64,000 nt of DNA, taken from positions 992,001 to 1,056,000 of the forward strand of contig NZ_CP080998.1 of the NCBI RefSeq assembly GCF_019645835.1, given 5' to 3'. This document shows, in pieces, positions 6,122 to 64,000 of this stretch. The DNA is from Mycolicibacterium holsaticum DSM 44478 = JCM 12374. Lineage in GTDB: Bacteria; Actinomycetota; Actinomycetes; Mycobacteriales; Mycobacteriaceae. Below the pieces are notes generated by a model, which searched no databases, was not told where the DNA came from, and saw only the letters and a list, made by a program, of their open reading frames with translations. Every line of letters begins with the position of its first letter. Within the stretch, counting starts at the first letter, position 1. The position numbers and the translations under genes were made by a program.

Positions 6122-6131
6122 GCTCCCAGAC

Positions 6132-44400: not shown

Positions 44401-47400
44401 GCGCTGGCGCCGGGGATCCTCGATTTCGCGGTGGAGACCTACGAAGCCGGCGAACGTACGCGGCGCGCGCACGCGGTGCTGCACGCCGAGGTGACGGCCG
44501 GTGAACCCGCCGCCCATGACATCGACACGCTGCTGACCGCTCACGCCGACGGAGTTGACGGTGCGGACCTGCGAACCGCCTTCGGTGCATTGGGGATTTC
44601 CCACGGACCGGCCTTCGCGGGGCTGGCGACGGCCTACACCGCCGACGTGCCTGCGCAGACGGTGCTGGCGGTCGTCGCGCTGCCCGGCCCGCTGCGGGCA
44701 AACCAGGGCGCCTACGGGGTGCATCCGGCACTGCTGGACGCCTGCTTCCAGTCGGTCGTCGCGCATCCGGTCGCCCAGAACGCGGCCACCGGCGGCATGC
44801 TGCTGCCGTTGGGTGTGCGCCGGCTGCGGGCCAACGGCTCGGCGCGAAACGCCCACTACTGCTACAGCCGGATCGTCAAGGCGGACGCCGACGGCATCGA
44901 GGCGGACCTCGACATTCTCGACGAGCGCGGCGCAATTCTGGTGAGCCTGGAAGGTTTACGGCTCGGCACGGGTGCTTCGCAGAAGGCTCAGGCCGACCGG
45001 GTGCTCAACCAGCGGCTGCTGACCATCGAATGGCACCAGCGCGACTTGCCCGAGGCCAACCCCGTGGACGCGGGGTCCTGGCTGCTGATCGACACCAGCA
45101 CCAACGGAGACATCCTCGCCGCCGCGCTCGGTGATGCCTTGAAGACCGCAGGCGCAGAGTGCACGACGATGACGTGGCCATCGGACGGTGAGCATCAGAC
45201 CAACCGTGAGCTGCTGATGTCCTACGTCGGTGAGCAGGCGCTGTCCGGCGTGGTGGTCGTGCCGGACCTCGCCGAGGGCGACGGTGACGCCCATGCGACG
45301 GTGCGAGGCGGCGAGCATGTCCGTCACCTGGTGCGGATGATCCGGGAGCTGCCCGAAGCCCCGGGTGAGCCCCCGCGGCTCTTCGTCGTGACCCGCAACA
45401 CGCAATCGGTTGTCGGGCAGGATGTTCCGAATCTGGAACATGCCGGTCTGCGCGGCTTCGTCCGCGCGATCGGGATGGAACATCCGCGGCTGCGCGCCAG
45501 CCAGATCGACGTCGACGAGGCAACCGGCGTCGAGCAGTTGGCCCGTCAGCTGCTCAGCGGTTCGGACGAGGACGAGACCGCCTGGCGCGACGGCCGTTGG
45601 TACACCGCGCGGTTGAGTCCGGCTCCGCTGCACGCCGACGAACGACACACCGCGACGGCATCCAACGAACGCGACGGGATGCGGCTGCAGGTCCGCACCC
45701 CAGGCGATCTGGAGTCGCTGGAAATGGTTTCGGTCGAGCGGGTGGCACCGGGTCCCGGCCAGATCGAGGTCGCGGTGAGCTCGTCCAGCATCAACTTCGT
45801 CGACGTGCTCGTCGCCTTCGGGCGGTGCCCGAGCTTCGACGGGCGGCTGCCGGAACTGGGTTCGGAGTTCGGCGGCGTCGTCACCGCGGTCGGTCCCGGC
45901 GTCACGACCCACCGGGTGGGCGACCGCGTCGGCGGCGTGTCCGCCAACGGCTGCTGGGGCAACTATGTCATCTGCGAGGCCAACCTCGCGACGACGTTGC
46001 CTGCCGGGCTGGAAGAGCATCAGGCCGCCGCGGTCGGCCTCGCGTACGGCACCGTGTGGCTCGGCCTGCAGGAGCTGGCCAGGATCTCCTCGACGGACAA
46101 GGTGCTGATCCATTCGGCCACCGGCGGCGTCGGTCAGGCCGCGATCGCGGTGGCGCGCGCGGCCGGTGCGGAGATCTACGCCACCGCAGGCAGTGAGGCG
46201 CGCCGACAGCTGTTGCGGGACTGGGGCATCGAGCATGTCTACGACTCGCGCAGCACCGAGTTCGCCGACCAGATCCGGCGCGACACCGACGGTTACGGCG
46301 TGGACATCGTGCTGAACTCGGTGACCGGTGCCGCCCAGCGCGCCGGGTTGGAGCTGCTGGCCTTCGGCGGCCGGTTCCTCGAGATCGGCAAGCGCGACAT
46401 CTACGGTGACACCCGGGTGGGTCTGTTCCCGTTCCGCCGCAACCTGTCGTTCTATGCGATCGACCTGGCGCTGATGACGATCACCCATCCCGACAAGGTG
46501 CGTGGCCTGTTGGAAAAGGTGTACCAACTGACCGCCGACGGCTCGCTGCCGCTGCCGGACATCACGCGCTACCCACTCGCCGACGCGGCCAGCGCGATCC
46601 GCAAGATCGGCGGCGCCCAGCACACCGGGAAGTTGGTGCTCGACGTCGCGCAGAGCGGCAGCACCGAGGTGATGGTGCCGCCAGAACAGGCACCGACATT
46701 CCGCTCCGACGGCGCATACATCGTCACCGGTGGTCTTGGCGGTCTGGGCCTCTTCCTCGCCGAGAAGATGGCGGAGAAGGGTTGCGGGCGCGTCGTTCTC
46801 ACCTCGCGTAGCCAGCCAAGCGTCAAGGCGCAGGAGATCGTCGAACTCATCCGGTCCACGGGTGCCGACATCGTCGTCGAGTGCGGCGACATCTCCGCGC
46901 CGGGCACGGCCGAACGGCTGGTGGCCGCGGCGACCGCGACCGGGTTACCGCTTCGCGGGGTGCTGCACGCAGCCGCCGTGGTCGAGGACGCCACCTTGCC
47001 GAACATCACCGACGAACTCGTCGAACGGGACTGGGCACCAAAGGTGTACGGCGCCTGGCATTTGCACCGCGCGACGGAGGGGCAGCCGCTGGACTGGTTC
47101 TGTGCGTTCTCGTCTGCCGCTGCGCTGGTCGGTTCGCCGGGCCAGGGTGCCTACGCGGCCGCCAACAGCTGGCTGGACGCGTTCACGCGTTGGCGCCGGG
47201 CACAAGGCCTTCCGGCCAACGCCATCGCGTGGGGCGCGTGGGGTGAGATCGGTCGCGGCACGGCGCTTGCCGAAAACGATGCGGCGATCCTTCCCGACGA
47301 GGGTGCTTACGCGTTCGAGTCGCTGCTGGCATACGACCGCGTGTACACCGGTTACGCCCCGATTCTCGGGACGCCCTGGTTGACCGCGTTCGCGCAGCGC

Positions 47401-47739
47401 AGCCCGTTCGCTTCGGCGTTCAAGTCGGCAAGCCAAAGTTCCACCGAGGGGAGGAAACTTCGGGCGGAGCTGGCCGCGTTGCCGCGCGATGAGTGGCCAA
47501 CGCACCTGCGGCGGCTCATCTCCGAGCAGGTCGGCCTGATCCTGCGGCGCGCGATCGATCCTGACCGCCCGCTGTCCGAATACGGGCTCGACTCGCTGGG
47601 CAACCTCGAACTGCGCACCAGGATCGAGGCTGAAACGGGAATTCGCATTACCGCAATGGGGGTCAATACTGTTCGCGCATTGGCCGACAGCCTCTGCGAG
47701 ACGCTCGCGGCGGACGACACGGTCGCGGCGTCCTCATGA
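41449..47739 (+). CDS. MAS/Pks5-type reducing polyketide synthase
   Basis: This 2096-residue type I synthase has the order KS-AT-DH-ER-KR-ACP. The KS has Cys178 in DTACSSG, His313 in EAHGTG and His349 in KTNFGH. The AT has Ser625 in GHSMGE and later VDVASHS, as in methylmalonyl-using mycobacterial synthases. DH has His931, ER the GGVGQAA loop near 1560, KR the TGGLGGLG loop near 1760, ACP Ser2049 in LDSLG. Length and layout match Mas, Pks2 and Pks5, which work iteratively to make methyl-branched fatty acids for surface lipids. Start GTG 41449 follows GAGAGAGG. A possible promoter is TTGAGA/TATTCT before it. No FadD loading enzyme is in the window. Confidence 0.93.
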
Positions 47740-47766
47740 CGACGGCACCGAAGTAGGAGGCGAGGA

Positions 47767-49212
47767 ATGTTCGCGCTAGAAGCAATCCACGAGTGGGTGG
47801 ACGCTCCGGGCCAACTCATCACCTGGGATCCCTCACCGGCGACCCTTGCCAAGGTCGGCGATGCACCGATCGCCGAGGTGCCCGCCAGTTATCAGCAGGC
47901 CCAACATCTTCGGAACTACCGCGAGCATGCGTCCCGCGGTAACGAGATGGCCCGCCTGACCATTCCGGCCTGGAACATCGCCGGCCGCTGTGATGTGCGG
48001 GCGATGACGCACGTGCTCAACGCCTACCTTCGGCGCCACGACACGTACCGCAGCTGGTTTCAGTTCACCGAGGACGACCGCATCGTGCGGCGCACGCTGC
48101 GCAACCCCAAGGACATCAAGTTCGTCGCCTCCGAGCGCGGCGAGAAGTCGTCGGCCGAGTGGCGTGAGCATATTCTCGCCACACCGTCTCCGCTGAACTG
48201 GGATTGCTTCCGTTTCGGCGTCATTCAGCGTGCCGACCACTTCACGTTCTGGATGAGCGTGGACCATCTGCACGTCGACGCGATGTTCATGGGGTTGGCG
48301 TTCGTCGAGATCCACATGATGTACGCCGCGCTGGTCGGCGGCGGCGCGCCCATTCCGCTGCCGGAAGCGGGCAGCTACGAGGACTACTGCGTGCGCCAGC
48401 GTGAGTTCACGTCCGCGCTGACGCTGGACTCGCCGCAGGTGAACGAATGGATCAAGTTCGCCAGGGGCAACGACGGCACCCTGCCGCGGTTCCCACTTCC
48501 GCTCGGCGATCCGGCGGTGCCGTGCGAGGGCGACCTGCTCACCGTGTCGCTGATGGACGAAAACCAGTCGGACCGCTTCGAATCGGCGTGCATCAAGGCC
48601 GGCGCGCGATTCATCGGCGGCGTGTTCGCCGCGACCGCGATGGCCGAGCACCAACTCACCGGTACCGACACCTACTACGTCATCACGCCCACCAGCACGC
48701 GAACCACGCAGGCCGAGGTGATGACGACGGGCTGGTTCACCGGCACGGTTCCCATCACGGTGCCCGTCAGCCCGACGTCGTTCGCCGAAACCGCGAGGGC
48801 CGCACAGGCTTCTTTCGACTCCGGCCAGGCTCTGGCGCATGTTCCGTTCGACCGGGTGTTGGAACTGGCGGCCGCCGAACGTGGCTTGACGCAGCCGAAG
48901 CCGGGCGTGCCGATGATCTCCTACCTCGACGCCACCATCGCGCCGCTGTCACCTGCGGTGGTCGCCGAGTGGAATGGGTTGAACGGCAAGATCTACAGCG
49001 AACTCGGGGCGGCCCACCAGGTCGGCATGTGGATCAACCGGTTCGGCAACGGCACGTCGGTGACACTGGCGTTCCCGAACAATCCGATCGCGCGTGAGTC
49101 GGTCACCCGCTACGTCGAGGCGATGAAGGCGGTGTTCCTGCGGGTCGCCGACGGCCGCGGCGAGTTGATGGCGACGCCAGAACTCGTAGGCGTCATCCAG
49201 AAGTCGTCCTGA
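47767..49212 (+). CDS. PapA-type polyketide-associated acyltransferase
   Basis: This 481-residue protein is a PapA acyltransferase of the condensation-domain fold. The catalytic motif is H167-LHV-D171-A (HxxxD with Ala where many have Gly). The N-terminus (FALEAIHEWVDAPGQLITW) and NIAGRCDVRAMTHVLNAYLRRH resemble PapA1-PapA4, which move polyketide acyl chains from the synthase to trehalose or another sugar. ATG 47767 follows AGGAGGCGAGGA, 27 bases after the synthase stop. It is probably the first acylation step of the glycolipid made here. Confidence 0.9.
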   Translation: MFALEAIHEWVDAPGQLITWDPSPATLAKVGDAPIAEVPASYQQAQHLRNYREHASRGNEMARLTIPAWNIAGRCDVRAMTHVLNAYLRRHDTYRSWFQFTEDDRIVRRTLRNPKDIKFVASERGEKSSAEWREHILATPSPLNWDCFRFGVIQRADHFTFWMSVDHLHVDAMFMGLAFVEIHMMYAALVGGGAPIPLPEAGSYEDYCVRQREFTSALTLDSPQVNEWIKFARGNDGTLPRFPLPLGDPAVPCEGDLLTVSLMDENQSDRFESACIKAGARFIGGVFAATAMAEHQLTGTDTYYVITPTSTRTTQAEVMTTGWFTGTVPITVPVSPTSFAETARAAQASFDSGQALAHVPFDRVLELAAAERGLTQPKPGVPMISYLDATIAPLSPAVVAEWNGLNGKIYSELGAAHQVGMWINRFGNGTSVTLAFPNNPIARESVTRYVEAMKAVFLRVADGRGELMATPELVGVIQKSS

Positions 49213-49235
49213 ATCGCGGTCAAGCGGGCGGCTCG

Positions 49236-50594
49236 ATGACTGTGGCGGCACAAGCGCGGCTGGACAACCGGCTCTCCTTCACCGACCAGCTGTTGTTCCT
49301 CGGCCAGCGGGCCACCGGCCAGGAACTCGTCATGCAGTGTGTGTGGGTGTATGAACACCCCGTCGACCTGGACGGAATACGACGGCTGCACGAGAACGTC
49401 GGTTACGGCTTGTACGGTCGGTTGATCGAACGCTCGCCGCTGCCGTTCGGCAGGCACCGGTGGGTTTCTGCGCCGGGGGCGAAATCGAGCCTCGATATCG
49501 TCGAAACCCCGGTCCCTCGAGAGGAACTCAGCGACTGGATCGACGAACGCGCGCAGTTGCCGATCGACCCGGAAACCGGACCCAGCTGGCATCTCGGCGT
49601 GCTGCCGATGACCGACGGGTCGACCGCGGTCTCCATGGTGGGCTCGCACTGCTTGGCCGACGGCTTCGGCGGGTTACTGACGATCGTCGATGGCATCATC
49701 GGCAACCGTCGCGACCTCGGTTACCCGCCGCCGCGGTCGCGCCCGACGCTGCAGGCCGCGACCGCCGACCTGAAGGAGACGGTGCGTGGACTTCCCGAGG
49801 TGGCGCGCACGCTGGTGAGGGTGGGTAAGCAGGCGGTGCGTCGGCGCCACGAGATCAAGAGGTCGACCGGACCGCGAGCCGCGGTCACAGCAGAGAACAT
49901 GACGGAAAACGTTGTGGTGCCTGCGATCACCATCTACATCGACGTCGACGACTGGGATGTCCGGGCGAACGCTCTCAACGGAACGAGCCACTCGCTGGTC
50001 GCTGCATTCGCCGCCAAGTTGGCCGAACGCCTCGAGCGTCATCGCCCCGACGGCGGTGTCACCCTTCATATTCCGATCAGTGACCGGGTTGCCGACGATA
50101 CGCGGGCGAATGCCGCATCGATCGCCACCGTCGTCATCGATCCCACCTCGGTGACCACGGATCTCTCCGCGGCCCGCCGCGAGATCAAACGTGCGCTGAC
50201 GACCATGCGCGAGGAGCCAGACGAGAACCTGGAACTTTTACCGCTGACCCCGTTTATCCCCAAGCGCGCGGTCAAGCGCGGTTCAGATGTGGTGTTCAAC
50301 TTCGCGGATATGCCCGTATCCTGTTCCATCCTCGGCGATATCGACTCGATCGTTGCCCGGGCCGACGGAACCGAATCCGAGTACGTCATGCTCCGTGGGG
50401 TAGACCGGCAGGTGTCGCGCGGGTATCTCGAGCACCGCGGCGGGATGCTGACCGTGCTGGCCGGGCGAATCTGTGGCAAGGTGTCGATCACCGTCGTCGC
50501 GTACCAGTCCGGTGAAGAGAACTCCAAGCCGCGCCTGCGTGAGCTGGCCGCCAAGGTGCTGGCCGAGTTCGAGCTCACCGGTGTGATCGACTAG
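49236..50594 (+). CDS. HxxxDG acyltransferase, paralogue 1
   Basis: This 452-residue protein is a condensation-fold (WS/DGAT-like) acyltransferase. The motif is H138-CLA-D142-G in VGSHCLADGFGG. It contains [11 protein letters not shown] and FTDQLLFLG, which recur in the next gene and in the one at 53001, so the three are paralogues. Such genes are found in glycolipid loci, including the lipooligosaccharide type, and probably add further acyl groups to the sugar. It lies 23 bases after papA. Confidence 0.85.
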   Translation: MTVAAQARLDNRLSFTDQLLFLGQRATGQELVMQCVWVYEHPVDLDGIRRLHENVGYGLYGRLIERSPLPFGRHRWVSAPGAKSSLDIVETPVPREELSDWIDERAQLPIDPETGPSWHLGVLPMTDGSTAVSMVGSHCLADGFGGLLTIVDGIIGNRRDLGYPPPRSRPTLQAATADLKETVRGLPEVARTLVRVGKQAVRRRHEIKRSTGPRAAVTAENMTENVVVPAITIYIDVDDWDVRANALNGTSHSLVAAFAAKLAERLERHRPDGGVTLHIPISDRVADDTRANAASIATVVIDPTSVTTDLSAARREIKRALTTMREEPDENLELLPLTPFIPKRAVKRGSDVVFNFADMPVSCSILGDIDSIVARADGTESEYVMLRGVDRQVSRGYLEHRGGMLTVLAGRICGKVSITVVAYQSGEENSKPRLRELAAKVLAEFELTGVID

Positions 50595-50604
50595 CAGGAA
50601 GGAC

Positions 50605-52011
50605 ATGGCCATCCAAGCTCGTCCAGCGTTGCAGCGGCTGAGCCGCCGAGCAGCCAAAACCGGTACGGCGCAGGATAATCAGCTCACATTCATGGATCAG
50701 GCCGGTTTCCAGCTGCTGCGTGCGACCGGGCGCGGTCAACTCATGCAGGTGCTGTGGATTTACGAACATCCCGTCGACATGGACGGCCTGCGGCGGTTCC
50801 ACCGCAATTTCGGCTACGCGGTCTACGGGCGGTTGATCGAACGCTCACCGCTGCCGTTCGGCCGGCACCGCTGGGTGTCTGCGTTGGGGCCGGCCACCGA
50901 ACTCGACATCGCCGAACCGCGGCCTCGGTCAGAGGTCAGCGACTGGTTCGATGAACGAGCGCAGATACCGGTGGATCCCGAACGTGGGCCGGGATGGCAC
51001 TTCGGTGTGCTGCCGATGACCGATGGGTCCACCGCGGTCAGCGTGGTGGGTTCGCATTACCTCGCCGACGGTGTGGGCGGCTTGCAGTCGGTCACCGAGG
51101 CGGTCTCGGAAACCCGGCGGGACTTCGGCCATCCGCTTCCACAGGCGCGCAGGCGCTTTCGTGCTGCGCTGGCAGAACTTCGCGGAACCGCCAAGCAGAT
51201 CCCCGAGGCGGTCCGCACGGTGGGGGTGGCCGCGAGACTGGGCTATCAGAGCCGAGGTGAGGCGGCGGCCTCGACCGCGTCCGCGTCGCCGGTCACCGGC
51301 CGAACCGGCGACGATACCCGCGTTGTGCTGCCTGCGGTCTCGGTGCTGGTGGACCTGGCGCAGTGGGACGCCCGGGCAGCTTCGCTCAACGGTACGAGTC
51401 ATTCCCTGGTGGCCGGTTTCGCTGCGAAGCTGGGTGAACACCTGGGGCGCAGGCGCGCCGACGGCACCGTGACACTGGTGATGGCACTCAACGCGCGTAA
51501 CCTGCCCGACGACACCCGCGCGAACGCGATGATTTTCGGTTCCGCCGATATCGACCCGACCTCGGTGACCACGGATCTGACCGATGCCCGCAGCGCCGTG
51601 CGGCAGGCACTTCAGAAGGCACGAGACGAGCCCGACCCGGTCCTGCAACTCCTTCCGCTGGTGCCGTTCGTGCCGCGTTCGGCGCTCAAGCGAGTGGTCG
51701 AGCAGTTCTTGGGATCCGGTGCCGAGCTTCCGGTTTCGTGTTCGAACATGGGTGACATAGACCCGGCGGCAGCCTGTGCCGACGGGACCCCGGCCGAGTA
51801 CACCATGCTGCGCGGGGTGGACCAGAACGTGCGGCGCGCGGACGTCGAGCGCGCCGGCGGTCAGCTCGTGCTGGTGGTGGCACGGATCAGCGGACGGATC
51901 TCCATCGACGTTGTCGGTTACCAGGTCGGCGTCGAGAACTCCAAGCAGCGGCTGCGCGACGTGGCCGCGCGCACCCTGGCCGAATTCGGCCTCACCGGTG
52001 AGATCGTCTAG
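50605..52011 (+). CDS. HxxxDG acyltransferase, paralogue 2
   Basis: This 468-residue protein is a close paralogue of the previous one ([17 protein letters not shown] is shared). The motif is H151-YLA-D155-G in [15 protein letters not shown] 50605 follows AGGAAGG. It overlaps the end of the convergent methyltransferase gene by four bases. The two adjacent copies share more sequence with each other than with paralogue 3, which fits a recent duplication. Which acyl position each serves is unknown. Confidence 0.85.
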
Positions 52012-52829
52012 GTCTTGACCAGGCAGTACAGCCGGTAGGACAGATCGCCCCGTTCGACCTGTTCATACAGCGGAGAGCCTTGTGTGACAGCGACATCGCG
52101 GCCGAACCTGCGCAGCAGCGGCGGCGCGTGGCGATTGACCAGCTCCTGGTAGCGAGGGGAGTTGCGCTCCAGACCCCGCAGAACCTGGGCGTTGATCTCT
52201 TCCTGCGACACCACCTGCAACGCGGAATCGGCAAGGGCCGCTTCCCATTCCTCGACGCCGTTTCGGCCACGAAGATCGGCGTACAAGAAGTGTCCACCGG
52301 GGCTGAGCACCCGCGTCACCTCGGCGAGGAAGCGGCGGAAGTCCGGATACAGGTGAGCGGCTTCGACGTTGATCACCGCGTCGAAGTTCTGGTCGGGAAA
52401 CGGCAGGTTCTCCGCGTCACCCTGTACGAACGTCAGATTGGGAATGTTGTGCCGCCGTTGGCAAAAGGAGATACCCGACGGGTTGAGGTCCAGCCCCGTG
52501 TAGGAGGCGGGGCTGAACGTCCGCATGATGTAGGAGGCGGCGCCGCCGTGGCCGCAACTGACCTCCAACACCCGTTTATCCTTCAGGTCGACCTGGCTGG
52601 CCACGCGGTGATAAAGCTGAATGCAGACGCGATCTGGCTCATCGGAGGCCGCCAGCGGCAAATCCATCGGGGGGTCCTCCTCATAACCCCAATTGAGGAA
52701 GAGCACCTCGTCGTCGCCCAGCCGGCGGGTCATCAAGCTGTAGCCATATTTACCAACGAGTTTCCCAAGGTGGCGGTGCGAAAAGCCAACGACTTTGGAC
52801 ACCAACGGCCGGTAGATCTCCTCAATCAC
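52008..52829 (-). CDS. SAM-dependent methyltransferase, Rv2952/GPL type
   Basis: This 273-residue methyltransferase has the SAM motif [14 protein letters not shown] and the segments [22 protein letters not shown] and [16 protein letters not shown]. It closely resembles Rv2952, which methylates phthiotriol lipids, and the O-methyltransferases of glycopeptidolipid loci. It should methylate a hydroxyl of the lipid or sugar of this locus. It is encoded opposite to the synthase genes, divergent from acyltransferase 3 with a 171-base gap that contains no clear promoter motif. Confidence 0.88.
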
Positions 52830-53000
52830 GTGCGCAAGTATTCACGGTGGCCCGCCTGTTGTCAGCAACATGAGAAAACCGGCGAAACTGCTCTGCAACA
52901 TGGCCGGCAGGAGGACATCGCGGGAGCCGCGCGCGTAGCGGATCTGCCGTTGATAGCCTCGATGTGCGGTGAACCCTGAGCGCCGGTGAGACGAGGTGAC

Positions 53001-54380
53001 GTGCCCGAATCCAATTTGCGATCCGGACGGGCGGCAAATGCCGCTGGGCCCGACAGCACGCTTGCCTACATGGACCAGGCGTCGTACCTGTGGGTGCGGG
53101 CAAGCGGCCATGTCCACGGCATCCAGTGCACGTGGGTGTATCGGCGCGAAGTCGACCACGACGGGTTGCGTCGGGTGCACGACAACCTCGCGCACGGACT
53201 GCTGGGGCGACGTGTCGAACCGTCTGCGCTGCCATTCGGCCGCCATCGTTGGGTGTCATGTCACGAACTGCCCGGTATCGACGTCGCCAATCCCGTCGAC
53301 AGCCGTGACGCCGTGACCGACTGGTTCGACGAACGCGCACGGGTCCCGATCGACCCGGAGTTCGGCCCCTGCTGGCATCTGGGTGTCCTGCCCATCGAGG
53401 GCTACGGGACCGCGGTCACCCTGGTGGCGTCCCATACCGTGGTCGACGGAGTGGGTACGTGCATTGCGCTCACCGACGCCGTCAAGGGGGTGCGGCGGGA
53501 TCTGCGGCTACCGCCTCCGGGGGCCCGCCCGAAACGCCAGGCGCTCGTCGAAGACTTCCGACAAACCCTTCGCGGACTGCCCGAGATCGGCGATGCGCTT
53601 CGCGCGACGGTGACCGTCGCGCGCCAGAATCGGCCCACCAAAGAAGGGCCGGGTGGACAACCGTCGGCGCCCAAGCCGAACCGCAAAGACAACCGACCGG
53701 CGATGGTGCCGGGCGCGACGATCTACATCGACGGCGCCGAGTGGGACACCCGTGCCGAAAGCCTGGGAGGGACGAGTAACGCGCTGATGGCCGGCTTCGC
53801 GGCGAAGCTGGCCGAGAAATACGGGCGGCTCCGCGGCGACGGGTTGGTGACGTTGTCCTACCCGATCAACGACCGAACCGAAAACGACATGCGGGCCAAT
53901 GCGTTGAAGGGCATCGACTTCCCGGTGGACCCGCGGCCGGTGACATCGGACCTGCGCAAGATCCGCAACGATTTTCGGGAGACGATCAACGCCGGGCTCG
54001 GCAAATTCAAGGAACAGGAGCGGGCCTTCCCGCTGACCCCGTTCGTGCCGACGATTGTCCTTCGAAAACTTCCACTGGCGGCGATGAACGCCGATCTCAC
54101 CGTCGGGTGTTCGAACTTCGGGGAGATGGATCCCGCCGTCGCCTATGTGGACGGCAGCGAGGCGGACTACTACGGGATGCGGATGGTCGAGCAGAACCTG
54201 ACGGCCAACAGTCCCGAGGTGGCCTCGGGTGAGCTTTACGTGGCCTCGGGCCGGGTCGCTGGAAAGCTGTTCGTCAGTTTCCGGGCCTATCACCCGAATT
54301 GGGACAACTCGAGGCAGGCCCTGCTCGAGAAGATATCCGCGACGCTCGCCGACTTCGAGTTGACGGCCTTCATCGAGTAG
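53001..54380 (+). CDS. HxxxDG acyltransferase, paralogue 3
   Basis: This 459-residue protein is a third member of the acyltransferase set, more divergent than the first two. The motif is H145-TVV-D149-G in VASHTVVDGVGT, and [12 protein letters not shown] is kept. GTG 53001 with GAGG four bases upstream is preferred over GTG 52986. The gene is separated from its paralogues by the methyltransferase and runs in the opposite direction to it. Its end overlaps the convergent glycosyltransferase by 11 bases. Confidence 0.82.
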   Translation: MPESNLRSGRAANAAGPDSTLAYMDQASYLWVRASGHVHGIQCTWVYRREVDHDGLRRVHDNLAHGLLGRRVEPSALPFGRHRWVSCHELPGIDVANPVDSRDAVTDWFDERARVPIDPEFGPCWHLGVLPIEGYGTAVTLVASHTVVDGVGTCIALTDAVKGVRRDLRLPPPGARPKRQALVEDFRQTLRGLPEIGDALRATVTVARQNRPTKEGPGGQPSAPKPNRKDNRPAMVPGATIYIDGAEWDTRAESLGGTSNALMAGFAAKLAEKYGRLRGDGLVTLSYPINDRTENDMRANALKGIDFPVDPRPVTSDLRKIRNDFRETINAGLGKFKEQERAFPLTPFVPTIVLRKLPLAAMNADLTVGCSNFGEMDPAVAYVDGSEADYYGMRMVEQNLTANSPEVASGELYVASGRVAGKLFVSFRAYHPNWDNSRQALLEKISATLADFELTAFIE

Positions 54381-55620
54381 CGCGGCCGTCGCGGGCGGCC
54401 GCTTCGAGCAGGTCGGCGGCGGTGGAGACGCTCACGGCGGGCTTCGTGAGCCGGGTGGCGACCTCGCGGGCCTGCGCGACGTATTCCGGTGCCAGCACCG
54501 CCCGCAGTTTCGCACTCAGCGACTCGGTGGTCATCTTCGAAAAACGCTGGTATGCACCGACTTTCAAGCGCTCCACCTGCTTGGCCCAGACCGGCTGGTC
54601 GGCGCCCACCCACAGGACCAACGTCGGCACGCCCGCCCGGATGCTTGCGGCGGTTGTTCCCGCACCGCCGTGATGGACCACCGCGCGGCAGAGGGGAAAC
54701 ACGTCGGCATGGTTGACCGCGGGCGCGATCTTGACGTGCTCGGCGGGCCGGAAGTCACCGAGATCCCAAGATCCAGAACAGATCAGCGCCCGCTCACCCA
54801 GCCCTGCGCACACCTCGGTGATGGTGGCGACGGCGGCAGCAGGGGACTGGACCGGCATGCTGCCGAACCCGAAGTAGATCGGTGGGGTGCCCGCGGCGAT
54901 CCAGGAGAAAACGTCGTCGTCGGTTGCGGTGGCCAGCTCCATTGTCATCGCGCCGACGAACGGTCGCCTGCCACCCCATTCTTCGGCCAGCCCCGGAAAG
55001 AACAGCTCGTCGTAGGCCTGAATTTCCAGCGCTCCGCCCGCCACGATGCGGCTCACCGCGCGGGCCCGCGCCTTGGGTAGGCCGAGCTCGCGTCGCTGCG
55101 CATCCTCGGCGTTCTTCAACGCGCGCCAGTGCACCCACTCAGCGCCTGCCCACGCCGATCGGACCACCTTTGCCGGCAGCGGAATGGGCAGCACCTGGCT
55201 GTTGGCGCGCGCGGGGAAGTAGTGCAGCGCGGCCAACGGCACGTCGTAGTACTCAGCGACGTTGGCTGCGACCTCTTGATAGGTGGTGCCGGTCAGAACC
55301 AAGTCCGCGCCATCGGCCAGCGAAACCAACGTCCGGCTCATCTCGGCCCAGCCCTGGGTGATGTAGTCCCGTAGTTCGCGCAGCGCGGTGACGGGATTCT
55401 GGATCTTCCAGTACTTGCGGAAGATGTCGGCGTCCATCTGCTGCTGTGAATCCACCCCGTACGGCGCCGCAGGCGGAAGACCAGCGGTTTCGACGAACCG
55501 AAGGAGGTTCGGTGGAACTGCCAGGCGGACGTCGTGCCCGCGACGGAGGAGCTCGCGGCTGACGGCAGCACAGGGTTCGATATCGCCACGGGTGCCGTGC
55601 ACGCCCACAGCAAACTTCAC
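54370..55620 (-). CDS. GT1 family glycosyltransferase, GPL type
   Basis: This 416-residue glycosyltransferase begins VKFAVGVHGTRGDIEPC and has IYFGFGSMPVQSP and the C-terminal donor motif VHHGGAGTTAASIRAGVP, as in mycobacterial Gtf enzymes and Rv2962c. It should use a nucleotide sugar (often dTDP-6-deoxysugar) on a lipid acceptor. GTG 55620 with GGAG seven bases upstream is chosen; the longer frame runs into the promoter region. It is divergent from the mmpL gene. Confidence 0.88.
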   Translation of the reverse strand: MKFAVGVHGTRGDIEPCAAVSRELLRRGHDVRLAVPPNLLRFVETAGLPPAAPYGVDSQQQMDADIFRKYWKIQNPVTALRELRDYITQGWAEMSRTLVSLADGADLVLTGTTYQEVAANVAEYYDVPLAALHYFPARANSQVLPIPLPAKVVRSAWAGAEWVHWRALKNAEDAQRRELGLPKARARAVSRIVAGGALEIQAYDELFFPGLAEEWGGRRPFVGAMTMELATATDDDVFSWIAAGTPPIYFGFGSMPVQSPAAAVATITEVCAGLGERALICSGSWDLGDFRPAEHVKIAPAVNHADVFPLCRAVVHHGGAGTTAASIRAGVPTLVLWVGADQPVWAKQVERLKVGAYQRFSKMTTESLSAKLRAVLAPEYVAQAREVATRLTKPAVSVSTAADLLEAAARDGRATR

Positions 55621-55643
55621 TAGCCGCTCCAACGGGGTTTTAG

Positions 55644-55660
55644 AAAGGCAGAGTGCCTTT
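55644..55660. promoter_or_regulatory. Perfect palindrome in the glycosyltransferase leader
   Basis: AAAGGCA and TGCCTTT (arms of seven bases, three-base spacer) lie 24-40 bases upstream of the glycosyltransferase start. Minus-strand TAGTAT at 55685-55680 is a possible -10 box, so the site would be in the leader, as an operator or small hairpin. Confidence 0.5.
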
Positions 55661-55875
55661 ACCTGCCAATTCAGCAAATATACTAACGGCACTATGCGGA
55701 CATTCGACCGATCGCTGCGAGTTCATCGGCGAAAATGCATGCGCAGGCACGCCCCGATTACAACACAGTTACCACCGGCGCCGGGTGACCAGAGGCCGTA
55801 ACAGGAATGCTTACACCGGATTCCGACATTTACGTAGTTCGATCTGAGCAAACTCGGTGATTCCTCGTCTGCGCG

Positions 55876-55891
55876 GGTACCGGTGTACCGT
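55876..55891 (+). promoter_or_regulatory. mmpL promoter with inverted repeat
   Basis: GGTAC-CGGT-GTACC (55876-55889) is an inverted repeat that overlaps TACCGT (55886-55891), a possible -10 box ending seven bases before GTG 55899. This would give a leaderless mmpL transcript whose promoter could be blocked by a repressor bound to the repeat. Confidence 0.4.
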
Positions 55892-55898
55892 ATTTGGG

Positions 55899-58800
55899 GT
55901 GTTGAGGCGCGCCTTATCCACCGGTGCGTTCGAGGGCGCGGGCTTTCCGGCACTGGGTCGTCTGGTGGTCCGTCATCCGATCTTGGTGATCGTAGCGTGG
56001 CTTCTACTTGCGCTCACACTCTTCCTATCGCTGCCGCCGCTGACCGAGGTGGCAGAACGCAAGCCGCCGGGATTCCTTCCGGACGATTCCTCGGTACTCA
56101 TCGCCAGCCGTGAGATGAGCGAGGCCTTCAACGAAGGCGGCGAGGGCGGATCTGGCAGCTCCGGCAACGTCGGCGTCATCGTTCTCGTCGACGACAACGG
56201 GCTCACTCCTGAAGACGAGACCGTCTACCGCACCCTGGTGGAACGCCTCAACGCCATACCCGAGAGCGTGTCCTCGACGCAGGACTTCGTCACCATCCCT
56301 GAGTTGCGGCAGGTGATGACCAGCGAGAGCAAGAAGGCCTGGCAGCTGCCGATCAGCATGGAAGGCACGATGGGGACCGGCCCCGGGCAGCGGGCCTACA
56401 AGAACGTCGTCAAGGTCGTCGAGGAAACGACGGCGGGCACCTCGCTGAAGGCCAACGTCATCGGGCCGGCGGCCACGGTCGCCGATCTCAACAGGGTCGG
56501 TGTGCGAGACCAGCATGTGATCGAAACCGCCACCGTCCTCATCGTCTTCACGATCTTGATCGTGGTGTACCGCAACATCGTCGCGATGCTGTTGCCGTTG
56601 CTGATGATCGGCGTCGCGCTGGTGGTGTCCCAACAGACCGTGGCCGGCCTCGGTGAGGCGGATCTGTTGGGGCTGGGCCCGCAGACGTTCATGTTCATGA
56701 CGGCGATGATCATGGGGGCGGGCGTCGACTACGCGGTGTTCTACTTCACCCGCTATCACGAGTGCCTACGGCACGGGATGACTTCAGATGACGCGGTGAT
56801 CGAGGCCATGTCGTCGATCGGGAAGGTGATCGCGGGCTCGGCGGCGACCACCGCGCTCGCGTTCTTCGGCCTGAGCTTCACCCAACTCGGTGTCTTCTCC
56901 ACGGTCGGCGCGGCCCTGTCGATCACGGTTGGGATCGGCTTCCTGGCCTCGATGACACTGCTGCCCGCGATGGTTGTGCTCGCCGGGCGGCGCGGCTTGG
57001 TCAAACCGCGTAAAGACCTCACCGGACGGTTGTGGCGGCGCTCGGGTGTGCACATCGTGCGCAGGCCGGTGGCGCACCTGCTCGTCAGCCTGCTCATTCT
57101 GGGCACGCTGGCCAGCGCTGTCGGGCTGATCAGGTACAACTACGACGAGCGTAAGAACCTGCCGCCGGAGGCGCAGAGCAACAAGGCCTACGAAATCATG
57201 GACGAGCACTTCGACGTCAGCAGCACCGTCCAGCAGTTCATCCTCGTCCAGGCCCCCCATCAGGATCTGCGCAGCCCCAAGGCGCTGGCCGATATGGAGG
57301 AGATGGCCGACCGGGTCGCCGACCTGCCCGATATCGCCGTCGTGCGTGGCATCACCCGGCCCACCGGAGAAGTGCTCGAACAGGCCAAGGCCACCTACCA
57401 GGCCGGTGAAGTCGGCTCCAAGCTGGGCGACGCCTCCAAGCTCATCTCCGACAACGACTCCAACCTCAACCTGCTCAGCGGAGGCGCCGACAAGCTCGCC
57501 GACACCCTCGACCAGCTCCGCGACGGCGTACTCAACGGGCTCATCACCGTGCGGCCCTTGACGAACGTCCTCATCGACATGCAGGAAAAGTACGGTGGTG
57601 AAACCACTCTCGAGGAGATCGACAAGACCGCCGACCTCGTCGCGAACATGAACTCGCTCGGAGATGCTATGGGCGACAGCCTGATGGAGATCTCCGAGAT
57701 GTACAGCTGGGCGGCGCCGATCGTCAACGCCCTCAACACCAGCCCGGTGTGCAACCTCGATCCGGCGTGTGTTGAGTCGCGGTCCTACCTCCAGCGCGTC
57801 ACCACGTTCCAGAACGACGGCACGGCGGAGAAGGTCGCCAATCTCGGTCGCGTGCTCAAAGAGACCAAGGCGACCCAGACCCTCGACGAGACCGTGCGGG
57901 ATCTGGGCACCACGATGAAAACCGCAGTGGACGCGGCCCGCCAGGCCGGCTTGGACGAGCCGAACGCGATTCGCGAGCAACTCAAGAAGGCCGAGCAAGG
58001 GGCGAACCTGCTCGCCGATTCCAGCAGGCAGCTCGCCGAAGGCGTCCAACTGCTCGTTGACCAGACCAAGAACTTGGGCGGCGGCCTTGATCAGGCTTCG
58101 GCATTCCTGCGGGCGATGAAGCAGGATGCGAACGAACCGCCGATGTCGGGCTTCTACGTCCCGCCGCAGATCCTCACGCAGGACGAGTTCAAGAAGGCAG
58201 CCGATGTCTTCATCTCACCGGACGGCCACACGGCGCGGTATTTGGTGCAGACCGCGCTCAACCCGTTCGGCAGCGAATCGATGGACCAGGTGAAGTCCAT
58301 CATCGAGACCGCCGAAGGCGCGCGCCCCAACACCACGCTCGAGGACGCGAAGATCTCGATGGTGGGGTTCTCCGCGGTGCAGAACGACATGCGCAACTAC
58401 TACAACGGCGATCTGCGGTTCATCATCTTCTTCACGTTGATCATCGTGTTCGTGGTGCTCGTGGCGCTGCTGCGTTCCATCGTGGCACCGATCTATCTGG
58501 TCGGGTCGGTCATCCTGTCGTATCTGTCCGCGCTCGGCATCGGGGTGGTGTTCTTCCAGTTCATCCTCGGCCAGGAACTCGCCTGGAGTGTCTCGGGGAT
58601 GGCGTTCCTGGTGCTCGTGGCGGTCGGCGCCGATTACAACCTGTTGCTGATCTCCCGGATCCGCGACGAGGCGCGCCACGGTATCCGGTCAGGTGTGATC
58701 AAGACGGTCGGCGCCACCGGCGGCGTCATCACATCGGCCGGGCTGATCTTCGCCGCGTCGATGTTCGGCCTGACCTTCAGCAGTATCGCCGGCGTGGTCC

Positions 58801-59120
58801 AGATGGGCTTCGTGATCGGTATCGGCCTGCTGCTGGACACCTTCATCGTGCGCACCATCACCGTGCCGGCGATGGCGGTGCTGCTAGGTGACAAGAACTG
58901 GTGGCCGGGCAAGCTGACTTTCCATCGGAAGCAACCTGCGCAACATCCCCCGCAGCATTTTGATGACGACTTTCCCACGGACGAACTGGATTTGGCGGGA
59001 GCATCGGCGCCGACGGCCCGCATCGGCAGCGCCGTGAAGGCGCGCAGGGATGCGGCTGTGCGTCCGCGGCGATCACCGCGCTCACCCGCGCGGCCGGCGC
59101 CGTCGGGCGTGACCTACTGA
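55899..59120 (+). CDS. MmpL family RND lipid transporter
   Basis: This 1073-residue protein is an MmpL transporter that exports lipids or glycolipids to the cell envelope. It has an N-terminal helix (HPILVIVAWLLLALTLFLS), two blocks of membrane helices with the proton-relay pairs VDYAVFYFTRY and ADYNLLLISR, and two large outer domains. The C-terminus is short and basic. The GTG at 55899 is chosen because it fits a leaderless start; GTG 55857 is an alternative 14 codons upstream. Next to a Pks and PapA it most likely exports the product of this locus, as MmpL12 or MmpL10 do. Confidence 0.92.
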   Translation: MLRRALSTGAFEGAGFPALGRLVVRHPILVIVAWLLLALTLFLSLPPLTEVAERKPPGFLPDDSSVLIASREMSEAFNEGGEGGSGSSGNVGVIVLVDDNGLTPEDETVYRTLVERLNAIPESVSSTQDFVTIPELRQVMTSESKKAWQLPISMEGTMGTGPGQRAYKNVVKVVEETTAGTSLKANVIGPAATVADLNRVGVRDQHVIETATVLIVFTILIVVYRNIVAMLLPLLMIGVALVVSQQTVAGLGEADLLGLGPQTFMFMTAMIMGAGVDYAVFYFTRYHECLRHGMTSDDAVIEAMSSIGKVIAGSAATTALAFFGLSFTQLGVFSTVGAALSITVGIGFLASMTLLPAMVVLAGRRGLVKPRKDLTGRLWRRSGVHIVRRPVAHLLVSLLILGTLASAVGLIRYNYDERKNLPPEAQSNKAYEIMDEHFDVSSTVQQFILVQAPHQDLRSPKALADMEEMADRVADLPDIAVVRGITRPTGEVLEQAKATYQAGEVGSKLGDASKLISDNDSNLNLLSGGADKLADTLDQLRDGVLNGLITVRPLTNVLIDMQEKYGGETTLEEIDKTADLVANMNSLGDAMGDSLMEISEMYSWAAPIVNALNTSPVCNLDPACVESRSYLQRVTTFQNDGTAEKVANLGRVLKETKATQTLDETVRDLGTTMKTAVDAARQAGLDEPNAIREQLKKAEQGANLLADSSRQLAEGVQLLVDQTKNLGGGLDQASAFLRAMKQDANEPPMSGFYVPPQILTQDEFKKAADVFISPDGHTARYLVQTALNPFGSESMDQVKSIIETAEGARPNTTLEDAKISMVGFSAVQNDMRNYYNGDLRFIIFFTLIIVFVVLVALLRSIVAPIYLVGSVILSYLSALGIGVVFFQFILGQELAWSVSGMAFLVLVAVGADYNLLLISRIRDEARHGIRSGVIKTVGATGGVITSAGLIFAASMFGLTFSSIAGVVQMGFVIGIGLLLDTFIVRTITVPAMAVLLGDKNWWPGKLTFHRKQPAQHPPQHFDDDFPTDELDLAGASAPTARIGSAVKARRDAAVRPRRSPRSPARPAPSGVTY

Positions 59121-59130
59121 CGTCGGTGTA

Positions 59131-60039
59131 TCAGGGCTGTCCGCGCTGGACCTGCTCCAGCGTGGGTAGCCGCCAGTGCCTGCCCTGCTCGTGGTCGAAT
59201 TGCCGTGGCCGATAACGCAGTAAACCCCCGCCGGGGTAGGGCGTGTACTCCCCGAACCAGACAGTCCCGTCGACCGCGTAGAGATCGATCCTGATGAAAT
59301 CCCAGCCCGAGCCCAGGGCGCTGGCGATCTCCAGCATGGTCGGCAATTCGGGCGGCCGCGGCTCGTCGGCTACCGGGCGGATTCGCCAGCGCACCGGTAG
59401 CCGGTTCCAGTCGGCGTCGACGAAGGTGGCGGTCTGATGGCCGAACCGGCCACTGTTGACCTGAATCAGCTCCACCCGGCCGTCGAACACGAAGAATTTG
59501 TAATCGGGTGGCGGGGCGCCGTCCGGGGTCGGGATGCGTTCCTCGAGCAGCAGCAGGGGCCGGGCCGCGCCGTAGCCCCACTCACCCAGCTCCAGCGGCG
59601 TCCGCTTCCACCAATCCTTGGTCTGCTCCAGCAGATCGGCGAGACCAGTCGCCGGGTCCGGCCCGAACAACGCGTGACCGCTGCTGTGGTTGGGCTTGAG
59701 CACCCACGGCGGGAGGGCGGCCAGGTCCGGGGCATCGCGCAGGTCGGTGCCGGACCAGTAGGTCTGCGGGATCCGCATCAAGTCACCGGGATACGCCGCG
59801 CGCGCCATCTCCTTCATGCGCAACTTGTCGCAGGCGGCGATGATCCGCTCTCGCCGGTCGAACAGGATGCGCCAGTTGACTTTCTCGTTGAAAGTGCTCG
59901 GCTGCCTGAAGTTTCCCGGCCGGTGAATCATTGTCAGGTGAAAAGCCTGTCGCAGCAACGGTAGTGGGAGCTTGCTGATCATCCGCCGGTGCGCTGCAAG
60001 AAAGGCCGCCGGGGGAGTCCTGTTCATCAACAGCGGCAT
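59131..60039 (-). CDS. TupA-like ATP-grasp protein
   Basis: This 302-residue protein resembles TupA-like ATP-grasp proteins found in polysaccharide and teichuronopeptide clusters. It shows FNEKVNWRILFDRR, VLKPNHSSGHALFG (ATP-binding lysine and loop), DYKFFVFDGRV and DLYAVDGTVWFGEYTPYPGGG with metal-binding acidic residues. It probably joins an amino or carboxyl group to a glycan precursor. ATG 60039 with AGGGG six bases upstream is chosen; it lies 13 bases after the formyltransferase stop. Not to be confused with a glycosyltransferase, which such genes are often labelled. Confidence 0.8.
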   Translation of the reverse strand: MPLLMNRTPPAAFLAAHRRMISKLPLPLLRQAFHLTMIHRPGNFRQPSTFNEKVNWRILFDRRERIIAACDKLRMKEMARAAYPGDLMRIPQTYWSGTDLRDAPDLAALPPWVLKPNHSSGHALFGPDPATGLADLLEQTKDWWKRTPLELGEWGYGAARPLLLLEERIPTPDGAPPPDYKFFVFDGRVELIQVNSGRFGHQTATFVDADWNRLPVRWRIRPVADEPRPPELPTMLEIASALGSGWDFIRIDLYAVDGTVWFGEYTPYPGGGLLRYRPRQFDHEQGRHWRLPTLEQVQRGQP

Positions 60040-60052
60040 CGAAAACCCCTGT

Positions 60053-60994
60053 CTACGAGGCCTGGTCGGTGAGGTAACCGCCGCGGCGGAAGAACTCGTC
60101 GGCGCGGTGTTCGACGCCATCGGCAGCGCGCACCCGGGTGATCACCAGGCCGCGGTTCGTCCCGCGATACGCCGCAGGCCCGCACACCACCGCGCCGCCG
60201 CCCTCCTGCACGATCACCCGCCCCGGCGTTCCGCCATAACGGATTTGGGACACCCTCGCCTCGAGGACCTCGATGCGCTCGCCCCGGTAGTAGGCGTACG
60301 GGCGGGGATAGGGATCCGACAACGCGCGCACGAAGCGCTCCAGATCTTCGGCGGGCCAGTTCCAGTCGATCAAACTGTCACGCTCGGAACGTTTGTGGAA
60401 GTACGTGCGCTCAGCCTTGTTCTGCGGGCGCCACACCGCGGTCCCGGACTCCAGCGCGGTCAGCGCTTCGGCCAACGCGCCCGGAATCAGGTCGATTCCG
60501 CGTTCCACCAACTCGGTACCGGTGTCGTGGGGGCCGATGGGGAGCGAGTGCTGGACCAGGATGTCGCCGGTGTCCAGCTGCTCGTCCATCCGGTGAATGG
60601 TCAGCCCGATGGACGATTCGCCGCTGATCAACGACCAGATGACCGGGGAGAAGCCGGTACCTTTCGGCAGCAGCGAATCATGCAGGTTCAGCGTGCCGTG
60701 CGGCGGCAGGTCGTACAGCTCCGGGGGCATCCAGGTGTACCAGCTGTTGACGACGATGACGTCGGGTTCGGCCCGCTTCACCAGGTCGATGGTGTCGTTG
60801 TCGACCCGCTCGGTGAGGTGCACCGGGATGCCGAGGCTGTGCGCGAGGTCCTCGACCGAATCCGAGAAGATCCCCTTGTAGGAGTCGTCGCTAGCCGGGT
60901 GGGTGACCGCGAGCGCGACGTCGTGGTTCAGATCGATCAGCGCTTGCAGGGTCTTGACTCCCCACGTCTGGAAGCCGAACGACACGATGCGCAT
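60053..60994 (-). CDS. FxbA/CchA-like formyltransferase with iron box
   Basis: This 313-residue protein has an N-terminal formyltransferase domain and a C-terminal Fmt-like domain. The catalytic Asn-His pair is in TLNLHDSLLPKGTG and the aspartate in LDTGDI. The start MRIVSFGFQTWGVKTLQAL and the segment TYFHKRSERDSLIDWNWP resemble enzymes that formylate N5-hydroxyornithine for exochelin (FxbA) or coelichelin (CchA). A near-consensus IdeR box upstream supports a siderophore role. The neighbours are glycan genes, so a sugar N-formyltransferase is the main alternative. ATG 60994 follows TGAGG; no NRPS gene is in the window. Confidence 0.75.
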   Translation of the reverse strand: MRIVSFGFQTWGVKTLQALIDLNHDVALAVTHPASDDSYKGIFSDSVEDLAHSLGIPVHLTERVDNDTIDLVKRAEPDVIVVNSWYTWMPPELYDLPPHGTLNLHDSLLPKGTGFSPVIWSLISGESSIGLTIHRMDEQLDTGDILVQHSLPIGPHDTGTELVERGIDLIPGALAEALTALESGTAVWRPQNKAERTYFHKRSERDSLIDWNWPAEDLERFVRALSDPYPRPYAYYRGERIEVLEARVSQIRYGGTPGRVIVQEGGGAVVCGPAAYRGTNRGLVITRVRAADGVEHRADEFFRRGGYLTDQAS

Positions 60995-61058
60995 GACGAA
61001 CCTCACTGGATCTCTGCTGGCGGTGAGGGCGATCCCCCGAACGCTACGGCAAGTCAAC

Positions 61059-61077
61059 TTACCTTAGCCTAAGCTAA
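61059..61077 (-). promoter_or_regulatory. IdeR iron box upstream of the formyltransferase
   Basis: On the minus strand these 19 bases read TTAGCTTAGGCTAAGGTAA and match the IdeR consensus TTAGGTTAGGCTAACCTAA at 16 of 19 positions, with the central nine bases intact. The internal TAAGGT could be the -10 box, so bound IdeR-iron would repress the formyltransferase 65 bases downstream. fxbA of M. smegmatis is a known IdeR target. Confidence 0.75.
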
Positions 61078-61170
61078 GCTACACGGTGACCCCGGGAAAT
61101 CGCCTCTGACAGCCCCGGTGAGGCCTGCCGGCTCAGGCGTCAAACACGGTGTGCGGTGGGCACGTTTCAT

Positions 61171-62058
61171 TCACTGCCGGGTCAAATACAGGTCACACCG
61201 TTTCGTCGGCGGCGCATCCAGCCTGCGCAATTCGCTGTCACGCCACCGCAGGTACCACCGATTGCTGTACTCGTTCTCGACTATCCAGGCGCTGAACCCG
61301 GCCGCACTCAAGCGGCCAAACACCCGGCCCATCATCTCCACGTCATCCTCTGGATTCGCCTCGACGATCAGGTCCATGTCATCGGGGTAGGTGTCGAGGT
61401 TGTCGAGGATGTCGCCAAGGATGGCCGGCTCGGCCCCTTCGACGTCCATCTTGATGAGCCGCGCCCGCGCCATCTCGTCGTCGGTGAGGATGTCGCCTAA
61501 CCGCTGGGCGGGCACGGTGGCGACCCGCTTACCGTGCCGTGAAGCGAGCGTCGTTGTGGCACCGATGTTGCGCGGACCAAACCCGTATAAATCGATCGAC
61601 CCGGGTCGGTCCGAGACCGCCATGTTGACCGGGCGGACACGACCCGACAGCACCGGATTGTGCGCCAGGTTGCGCTGCAACCGCTCGAAGATGGCGGGGA
61701 ACGCCTCTACCGCAACGACAGCGCCTTCCGAACCCACTCGGGTAGCCGCCAGCAGCGAGTCGTACCCGACGTTCGCCCCGACGTCGACAAACACCGCACC
61801 TGGTCGCAGATTGCGTTCGATCAGGCGCGTGATGCCCGGTTCCCACACCTGGAACAACATGATCGTCCGCTGCACCGAATCGGCGGGATCACACGTCATC
61901 TTCGCGCCGAAATAGGTTTCGCAGTCCTGCTCGGACGCCCACCGTCGCAGCGCCATCGAGTACCAGTCCAACAACCCACCGCCGAGCGGGCCCAACCGGG
62001 CTGCGGCTCGAACGATTCTCTGGTGCCGACGGCGGGATTCGACCATCTTCTCCACCAT
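61171..62058 (-). CDS. FkbM-family methyltransferase
   Basis: This 295-residue methyltransferase has the SAM motif FVDVGANVGYDSLLA and the FkbM segment LIKMDVEGAEPAILGD. Family members O-methylate sugars of antibiotics and surface glycolipids. ATG 62058 is used; ATG 62046 with GGAG just before it is also possible. It starts 35 bases after the GT4 gene. It probably methylates a sugar of the surface glycan. Confidence 0.87.
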   Translation of the reverse strand: MVEKMVESRRRHQRIVRAAARLGPLGGGLLDWYSMALRRWASEQDCETYFGAKMTCDPADSVQRTIMLFQVWEPGITRLIERNLRPGAVFVDVGANVGYDSLLAATRVGSEGAVVAVEAFPAIFERLQRNLAHNPVLSGRVRPVNMAVSDRPGSIDLYGFGPRNIGATTTLASRHGKRVATVPAQRLGDILTDDEMARARLIKMDVEGAEPAILGDILDNLDTYPDDMDLIVEANPEDDVEMMGRVFGRLSAAGFSAWIVENEYSNRWYLRWRDSELRRLDAPPTKRCDLYLTRQ

Positions 62059-62093
62059 AGTCAGCCCGGGGCTGCCATGGCACTCCGTTGTGC

Positions 62094-63988: not shown

Positions 63989-64000
63989 TCCTCGCTTTCG

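Follow-up and report, generated by a model that had tools for sequence, protein, structure and literature searches.

A siderophore-type N-formyltransferase gene paired with an ATP-grasp ligase gene behind a predicted IdeR box in Mycolicibacterium holsaticum

The window, by which we mean the whole stretch of 64,000 nucleotides of Mycolicibacterium holsaticum DNA that was analysed, encodes an N-formyltransferase (FT) and a TupA-like ATP-grasp ligase (TupA) in the same orientation. A putative iron box lies upstream of FT, and genes of a glycolipid type are found on the side of TupA. The features are as follows.

41449..59120, no strand assigned: glycolipid-type neighbours (a 2096-aa PKS, acyltransferases, a methyltransferase, a glycosyltransferase and MmpL)
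59131..60039, minus strand: TupA-like ATP-grasp ligase, 302 aa (PF14305, 86 bits; predicted fold)
60053..60994, minus strand: FT, N-formyltransferase, 313 aa (PF00551, Formyl_trans_N, and PF02911, Formyl_trans_C)
60995..61170, no strand assigned: intergenic spacer that separates FT from the FkbM-type gene and contains the iron box; no sigma-70-type match
61059..61077, minus strand: IdeR-type iron box, reading TTAGCTTAGGCTAAGGTAA; a putative site, by sequence match
61171..62058, minus strand: FkbM-type methyltransferase gene (PF05050), the upstream neighbour, outside the unit

The box TTAGCTTAGGCTAAGGTAA is identical at 16 of 19 positions to TTAGGTTAGGCTAACCTAA, the sequence used for scoring, which we take to be the IdeR consensus. 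Positions 5, 15 and 16 differ and the centre is intact. At up to 3 mismatches this is the sole IdeR-type site in the 64-kb window (shuffled sequences lead us to expect 0.00), which confirms the match reported by the first-pass annotation. The same search of the 5.62-Mb genome returned three places, and none in a reversed control. The second (305790) is between a DUF2470 gene and pheA, a setting that presumably resembles Rv3839, and the third (1393632) precedes a gene for a siderophore-interacting protein. A looser core pattern, TTAGNNNAGNCTNNNNTAA, occurs at five places genome-wide, against none for the control. Two are in the mbt locus, one is between the DUF2470 gene and pheA, and one is before FT; the fifth falls within a MazF-like gene and is probably a chance match. 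The ATG of FT at 60994 is 74 bases 3' of the box centre and agrees with the starts of orthologues. The first-pass annotation had also described the box as overlapping a possible -10 element. This was not confirmed by a promoter scan of 58900-61400, which covered one promoter type and returned no sigma-70-type site.

No NCBIfam model matches FT at its cut-off; the Fmt model scores 155 against 201.5 bits. The genome's own, separate Fmt passes the Fmt-model cut-off (228.6 bits). Named relatives of FT are mostly annotated 'methionyl-tRNA formyltransferase', yet FT falls below that cut-off, which suggests that the name is wrong for this group. The best PDB sequence matches of FT are an ArnA domain (132 bits) and Fmt (123 bits), and its predicted fold is ArnA/Fmt-like (mean pLDDT 91.9). 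Residues N103, H105 and D141 do not vary across 27 aligned rows, as would be expected of a TerH-type N-formyltransferase. We take these N-H-D residues to be catalytic in formyl transfer, in the role that they have in ArnA and Fmt. The source genome has one FT orthologue only. The other formyltransferase-like match in the window (6393-6746) is PurN (6003-6761), which adjoins the PurH gene.

Relatives in the best 80 loci of a genome-collection scan share 57-88% identity with FT and come from Mycobacterium with its split-off genera and from Nocardia, Williamsia and Streptomyces. A genus survey of 297 mycobacterial genomes (FT at E <= 1e-60) identified FT in 84 (88 hits), and 87 loci were studied. 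TupA adjoins FT in 15 of these and is encoded elsewhere in the genome in 7 (both 73-100% identity). A further 42 are without TupA (74-84%) and 23 are of the fxbA type (55-65%). In a quick 105-row tree, with SH-aLRT support only and long outgroup branches, the window FT falls in a 21-row group from TupA-holding genomes (SH-aLRT 92), which includes the FT of genome G202. This group nests in a clade of Nocardia and mycobacterial FTs (support 100), and the fxbA-type FTs form a separate clade (support 93). The tree does not resolve the order of the three mycobacterial groups, and for comparison with sugar enzymes it includes only ArnA and the genome's own Fmt, both on very long branches. Identity to the Nocardia elegans orthologue is 77%. 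By sequence, the window FT is a member of the nocobactin-type (TerH-type) hydroxylysine formyltransferase clade. Neither this kinship nor the ATP-grasp partner was mentioned in the first-pass annotation. FT is not part of an NRPS cluster of the kind expected for TerH, as no NRPS-probe match was found in window positions 44001-64000.

The proposed likeness to FxbA is borne out: FT is 57% identical to an M. smegmatis formyltransferase (P0256) that lacks an FxbA label and is itself 84% identical to an fxb-locus protein. The further suggestion, that FT is a displaced exochelin gene, did not survive. The fxbA-type clade, anchored by gene order and by 84-85% identity of one member to M. smegmatis formyltransferases, does not include the window FT. 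The NRPS probe matches 22 of the 23 fxbA-type loci, and the formyltransferase gene has ABC exporter and NRPS genes beside it in the two that were examined one gene at a time, with MbtH in one; no such set of exporter, MbtH and NRPS genes adjoins the window FT. In genomes G286 and G187 an orthologue of the window FT coexists with an fxbA-type gene that lies in an fxb-type locus. Because the fxbA clade is separate and two genomes carry both kinds, we rejected a displaced exochelin gene. A displaced fxbA whose NRPS partners lie elsewhere could draw on the 57% identity and on two large NRPS loci in this genome (3.84 and 4.96 Mb). The tree and the two genomes count against it, as does the finding that these loci, which are outside mbt, have no box of at least 14/19 in the stretches read, and we judge it highly improbable. 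For lack of such a box we also set the two loci aside as partners of FT. The first (G000:C1:3844000-3900000) contains NRPS frames of 8108 and 2769 aa and, by eye, glycosyltransferase-, MFS- and sulfotransferase-like genes; it is probably a glycopeptidolipid-type cluster.

The iron box is widespread among relatives of FT, as would be expected of an IdeR regulon member and in line with the earlier proposal of an IdeR box before a formyltransferase gene. At 74 of the 87 loci the 130 bases preceding FT contain a box of at least 14/19, compared with 0.93% of 17,400 random 130-base stretches. It precedes 17 of the 22 TupA-partnered FTs, 40 of the 42 same-clade FTs without TupA, and 17 of the 23 fxbA-type genes, all 23 of which have at least 13/19. 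In the best-80 set a box of at least 14/19 was present in the 350 bases upstream of FT in 70 cases; the remainder are L007, L009, L015, L045, L047, L056, L074, L082, L084 and L085. The FT match in L074 starts at residue 21 and a 14/19 box is found about 1.45 kb upstream, possibly indicating a disturbed FT start or promoter. The TupA-partnered FTs below the threshold are those of G014, G096, G233, G254 and G286, and three of these five are pairs at the bioB locus. Unlike most relatives, the bioB-locus pairs (L007, L009, L015) have no IdeR-like box upstream, and they may have lost their iron control.

Two genomes have FT and TupA in divergent orientation, with a box in the region that they share. 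The nine loci where TupA is away from FT (the seven genomes with separate genes plus second copies in G251 and G204) have no box of at least 14/19, the best being 13. The ligase is thus not generally under iron control. As judged from these matches, predicted iron control is well conserved for FT, and for the ligase only where it adjoins FT.

Clues to the function of the clade come from Nocardia. Two papers describe nocobactin-type clusters with either an acetyltransferase, NbtH, or an N-formyltransferase, TerH, and mass spectra that fit acetyl or formyl products (PMC7413640; PMC3751702). In the first of these, clusters with TerH-type formyltransferases accompany N-formyl nocobactins (PMC7413640). 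Six strains that it names are among our FT loci (L029, L045, L050, L054, L079, L080): N. elegans NBRC 108235, N. jejuensis NBRC 103114, N. gamkensis NBRC 108242, N. brasiliensis NBRC 14402 and IFM 10847, and N. fusca NBRC 14340. For N. elegans and N. jejuensis, PMC7413640 relies on MS to postulate the formyl compounds. It gives a mass consistent with formobactin for N. gamkensis, lists both nbtH and terH in N. fusca, and names the two N. brasiliensis strains for their clusters.

FT also occurs in a nocobactin-like cluster in several mycobacteria, for example M. simulans and M. asiaticum (L014, L022; also L150, L171). Among the 15 mycobacteria with FT in such a cluster and without TupA, an MbtK match (threshold 1e-20) is absent in 9, weak in 2 and strong in 4; overall it is absent in 64 of the 297 genomes. 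This scarcity fits a role for FT in doing the job of MbtK in those 15 genomes. In Mycobacteroides sp. LB1 (L059), and also in L057, L058 and L060, FT has an MFS-type gene on one side and a long NRPS on the other. PMC9505556 describes an internal hydroxylysine without an acyl group in the mycobactin of M. abscessus; a formyl group at this position may be worth a check.

The TupA gene starts 13 bases past the FT stop. Its product matches PF14305, a family that we believe was named after a cell-wall polymer enzyme, and is predicted to have an ATP-grasp fold (pLDDT 90.9). The closest solved folds are the amide-forming ATP-grasp ligases D-Ala-D-Ala ligase, LysX/ArgX, RizA and RimK, at a TM of only ~0.4. 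A PDB sequence search with the TupA profile returned no match. Close homologues are named 'ATP-grasp fold amidoligase family protein' by NCBI. TupA (best copy at least 68% identical) is present in 22 of the 297 genomes, and every one of the 22 also encodes FT; G140 has a 41% homologue of TupA and no FT. The raw chance of this co-occurrence, with kinship ignored, is 9e-14, a value that overstates independence because the TupA genomes share one FT group. Stronger evidence is that the adjacent pair recurs in eight neighbourhoods in 15 genomes, where a neighbourhood is defined by the two mechanically called genes flanking the pair on either side. These are the glycolipid locus, bioB, rplJ, suf (names based on bioB- and L10-type Pfam matches and on SufB) and four others.

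An NRPS probe (tblastn, 1e-15; loci of ~8 kb each side, shorter at contig ends) matches none of the 15 loci with adjacent pairs, versus all 42 loci with same-clade FTs without TupA. Where TupA is apart from FT the probe matches near FT in five of seven genomes. Four of these matches are to an A-T-TE protein (domains scanned in one), and the fifth is to a nocobactin-like cluster in G202. In that genome (L133, L146) FT is within the cluster and TupA is elsewhere, beside MmpL and AMP-ligase genes, so this genome may be intermediate between an FT bound to a cluster and a free one. The lack of an NRPS match beside FT would also be expected if the genes were a remnant of a lost siderophore cluster, surviving by chance with no present function. 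This seems very improbable given that both frames are intact and strongly conserved, that the box is retained in 17 of 22 cases, and that the genes stay together in eight neighbourhoods. In the titles and abstract openings of the open-access papers searched we found neither a pairing of a free-standing FT of this clade with an ATP-grasp ligase nor TupA, ATP-grasp and siderophore mentioned together.

The A-T-TE protein has AMP-binding, PP-binding and thioesterase domains and no condensation match. It is encoded a few kb from FT in L147 (12750-15422) and near FT in L010, L148, L149, L169, L008 and L012. Boxes of 16-17/19 are located just before its gene in L147 and L010, and of 15/19 nearby in L148 and L149. 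We considered it as a third member of the unit and rejected it. In a genus search (E <= 1e-130, three candidates scored per genome) it was identified in 34 of the 297 genomes and not in the source genome, and 10 of the 34 are FT-positive, a share like the 84 of 297 overall. One Streptomyces locus (L085) encodes a 57% identical FT with no NRPS-sized gene called in ~10 kb on each side. A 13/19 box lies upstream of this FT (14/19 in L086), and the next gene has no clear family.

The glycolipid-type genes beside the pair in the window include condensation-like and PapA-type acyltransferases (the PapA likeness is our assumption), with a stand-alone condensation-like acyltransferase at 47767-49212. 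From this setting the first-pass annotation had raised iron control of glycan formylation, and FT could be a sugar N-formyltransferase of the surrounding locus that was put under iron control. Glycosyltransferases, the PKS, acyltransferases and MmpL nearby are compatible with this, as is the best PDB match to ArnA, a sugar formyltransferase, although Fmt is close behind. The locus of TupA in G202, beside MmpL and AMP-ligase genes, looks similar. Nor would iron-linked sugar formylation be wholly without precedent, given that Rv3402c, by number a neighbour of Rv3404c, is called iron regulated in the abstract of PMC3983203. However, FT falls in a siderophore clade, and the glycolipid locus is just one of the eight neighbourhoods of the pair. 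A genome-wide search for the NDP-sugar aminotransferase family PF01041 (other amino-sugar routes being outside this search) identified four partial matches, all above the Pfam cut-off and none in the window, the best with 37 bits over 131 of 360 positions. Since the pairs recur in eight neighbourhoods without an NRPS match nearby, the glycan setting is probably incidental, and we consider a sugar substrate improbable. Neighbourhood alone would probably have misassigned FT to glycan work. Neither original proposal, be it glycan formylation or a displaced exochelin gene, is likely.

Genes for siderophore synthesis are encoded elsewhere in this genome. Its mbt locus includes NRPS genes and an MbtG-like gene, the latter being the best match to the lysine/ornithine N-monooxygenase family PF13434 (49 bits). 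Fifteen further matches are shorter and score at most 38.5 bits, yet exceed the Pfam cut-off, which leaves room for another N-monooxygenase. The genome also encodes an MbtK-like protein (157 bits), whose gene has a 14/19 box and adjoins an ACP gene, and we therefore rejected a replacement of MbtK by FT in the source genome.

We conclude, with a probability of roughly 0.58, that FT and TupA form a two-gene unit that IdeR is predicted to repress at high iron and that likely makes or trims a formyl-hydroxamate chelator. What we observed is a conserved box, the clade of FT, its pairing with TupA, the lack of an NRPS match beside the pair and the presence of MbtK- and MbtG-like genes; from these we infer IdeR binding, the response to iron, the substrate, the order of steps and the product. 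At low iron IdeR would be released and FT and TupA transcribed. FT would then use N10-formyltetrahydrofolate to formylate N6-hydroxylysine at its hydroxylamine nitrogen. MbtG, the genome's best N-monooxygenase candidate, may provide the N6-hydroxylysine. This substrate is predicted from kinship, and the formylation step from kinship and predicted regulation. The ATP-grasp enzyme could activate a carboxylate with ATP and link the formylated unit to an amine via an amide bond, a step suggested only by fold and pairing. It would thus take the place held by the NRPS among relatives, and the product would be an extra hydroxamate beside ordinary mycobactin acylated by MbtK.

The main rival is that FT formylates N6-hydroxylysine for MbtE/MbtF in part of the mycobactin. 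This could give a shorter, more soluble variant, with the ATP-grasp enzyme editing the product or acting otherwise. The closest kin of FT do work in the assembly of mycobactin-like nocobactins, the genome has an mbt locus, and an MbtK match is often missing where FT is in a nocobactin-like cluster. However, all 22 TupA genomes retain an MbtK match, and FT is therefore dispensable for ordinary mycobactin acylation. A formyl-mycobactin would also leave unexplained the restriction of close ligase copies to FT genomes. We consider it unlikely, but the most credible of the rivals.

The siderophores of mycobacteria are usually regarded as mycobactins and exochelins, both of which are built by NRPS. 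If FT and TupA form a chelator-making unit as we propose, it is possible, and we suggest it tentatively, that a hydroxamate formyltransferase freed from the NRPS line works with an ATP-grasp ligase so that some mycobacteria form an NRPS-free formyl-hydroxamate siderophore beside mycobactin and exochelin. A predicted iron-controlled formyltransferase-ligase pair in eight neighbourhoods would point to an overlooked hydroxamate in environmental mycobacteria.

Among known systems, FT resembles the TerH-type formyltransferase of Nocardia in clade, in its two domains and in the box upstream of most members, with 75-83% identity to the Nocardia orthologues of FT, which stand in this comparison for TerH itself. 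It differs in having no NRPS match beside it, in the TupA-like ligase next to it, and in the MbtK-like gene that is also present. CchA, of coelichelin, to which the first-pass annotation also likened FT, is presumably of the same kind; the comparison here is with two Streptomyces relatives, which are 57% identical to FT with boxes of 13-14/19. IdeR-controlled siderophore formyltransferases are already known, for example fxbA, which an IdeR site precedes according to PMC2170428. With FxbA, of the M. smegmatis exochelin, FT shares the 57% identity to P0256, but the clades are separate, the two fxb-type loci examined in detail have ABC exporter and NRPS genes, and the two kinds occur together in two genomes. 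The ArnA formyltransferase domain and Fmt share the fold and the N-H-D residues, but identity is 27-30% and FT is below the Fmt-model cut-off. The sugar N-formyltransferases of the Rv3404c type (4pzu, 4q12) have the Formyl_trans_N domain in common with FT, at only 33 bits. The ligase, in turn, shares with the TupA-like ATP-grasp family (PF14305) an 86-bit match and the ATP-grasp fold.
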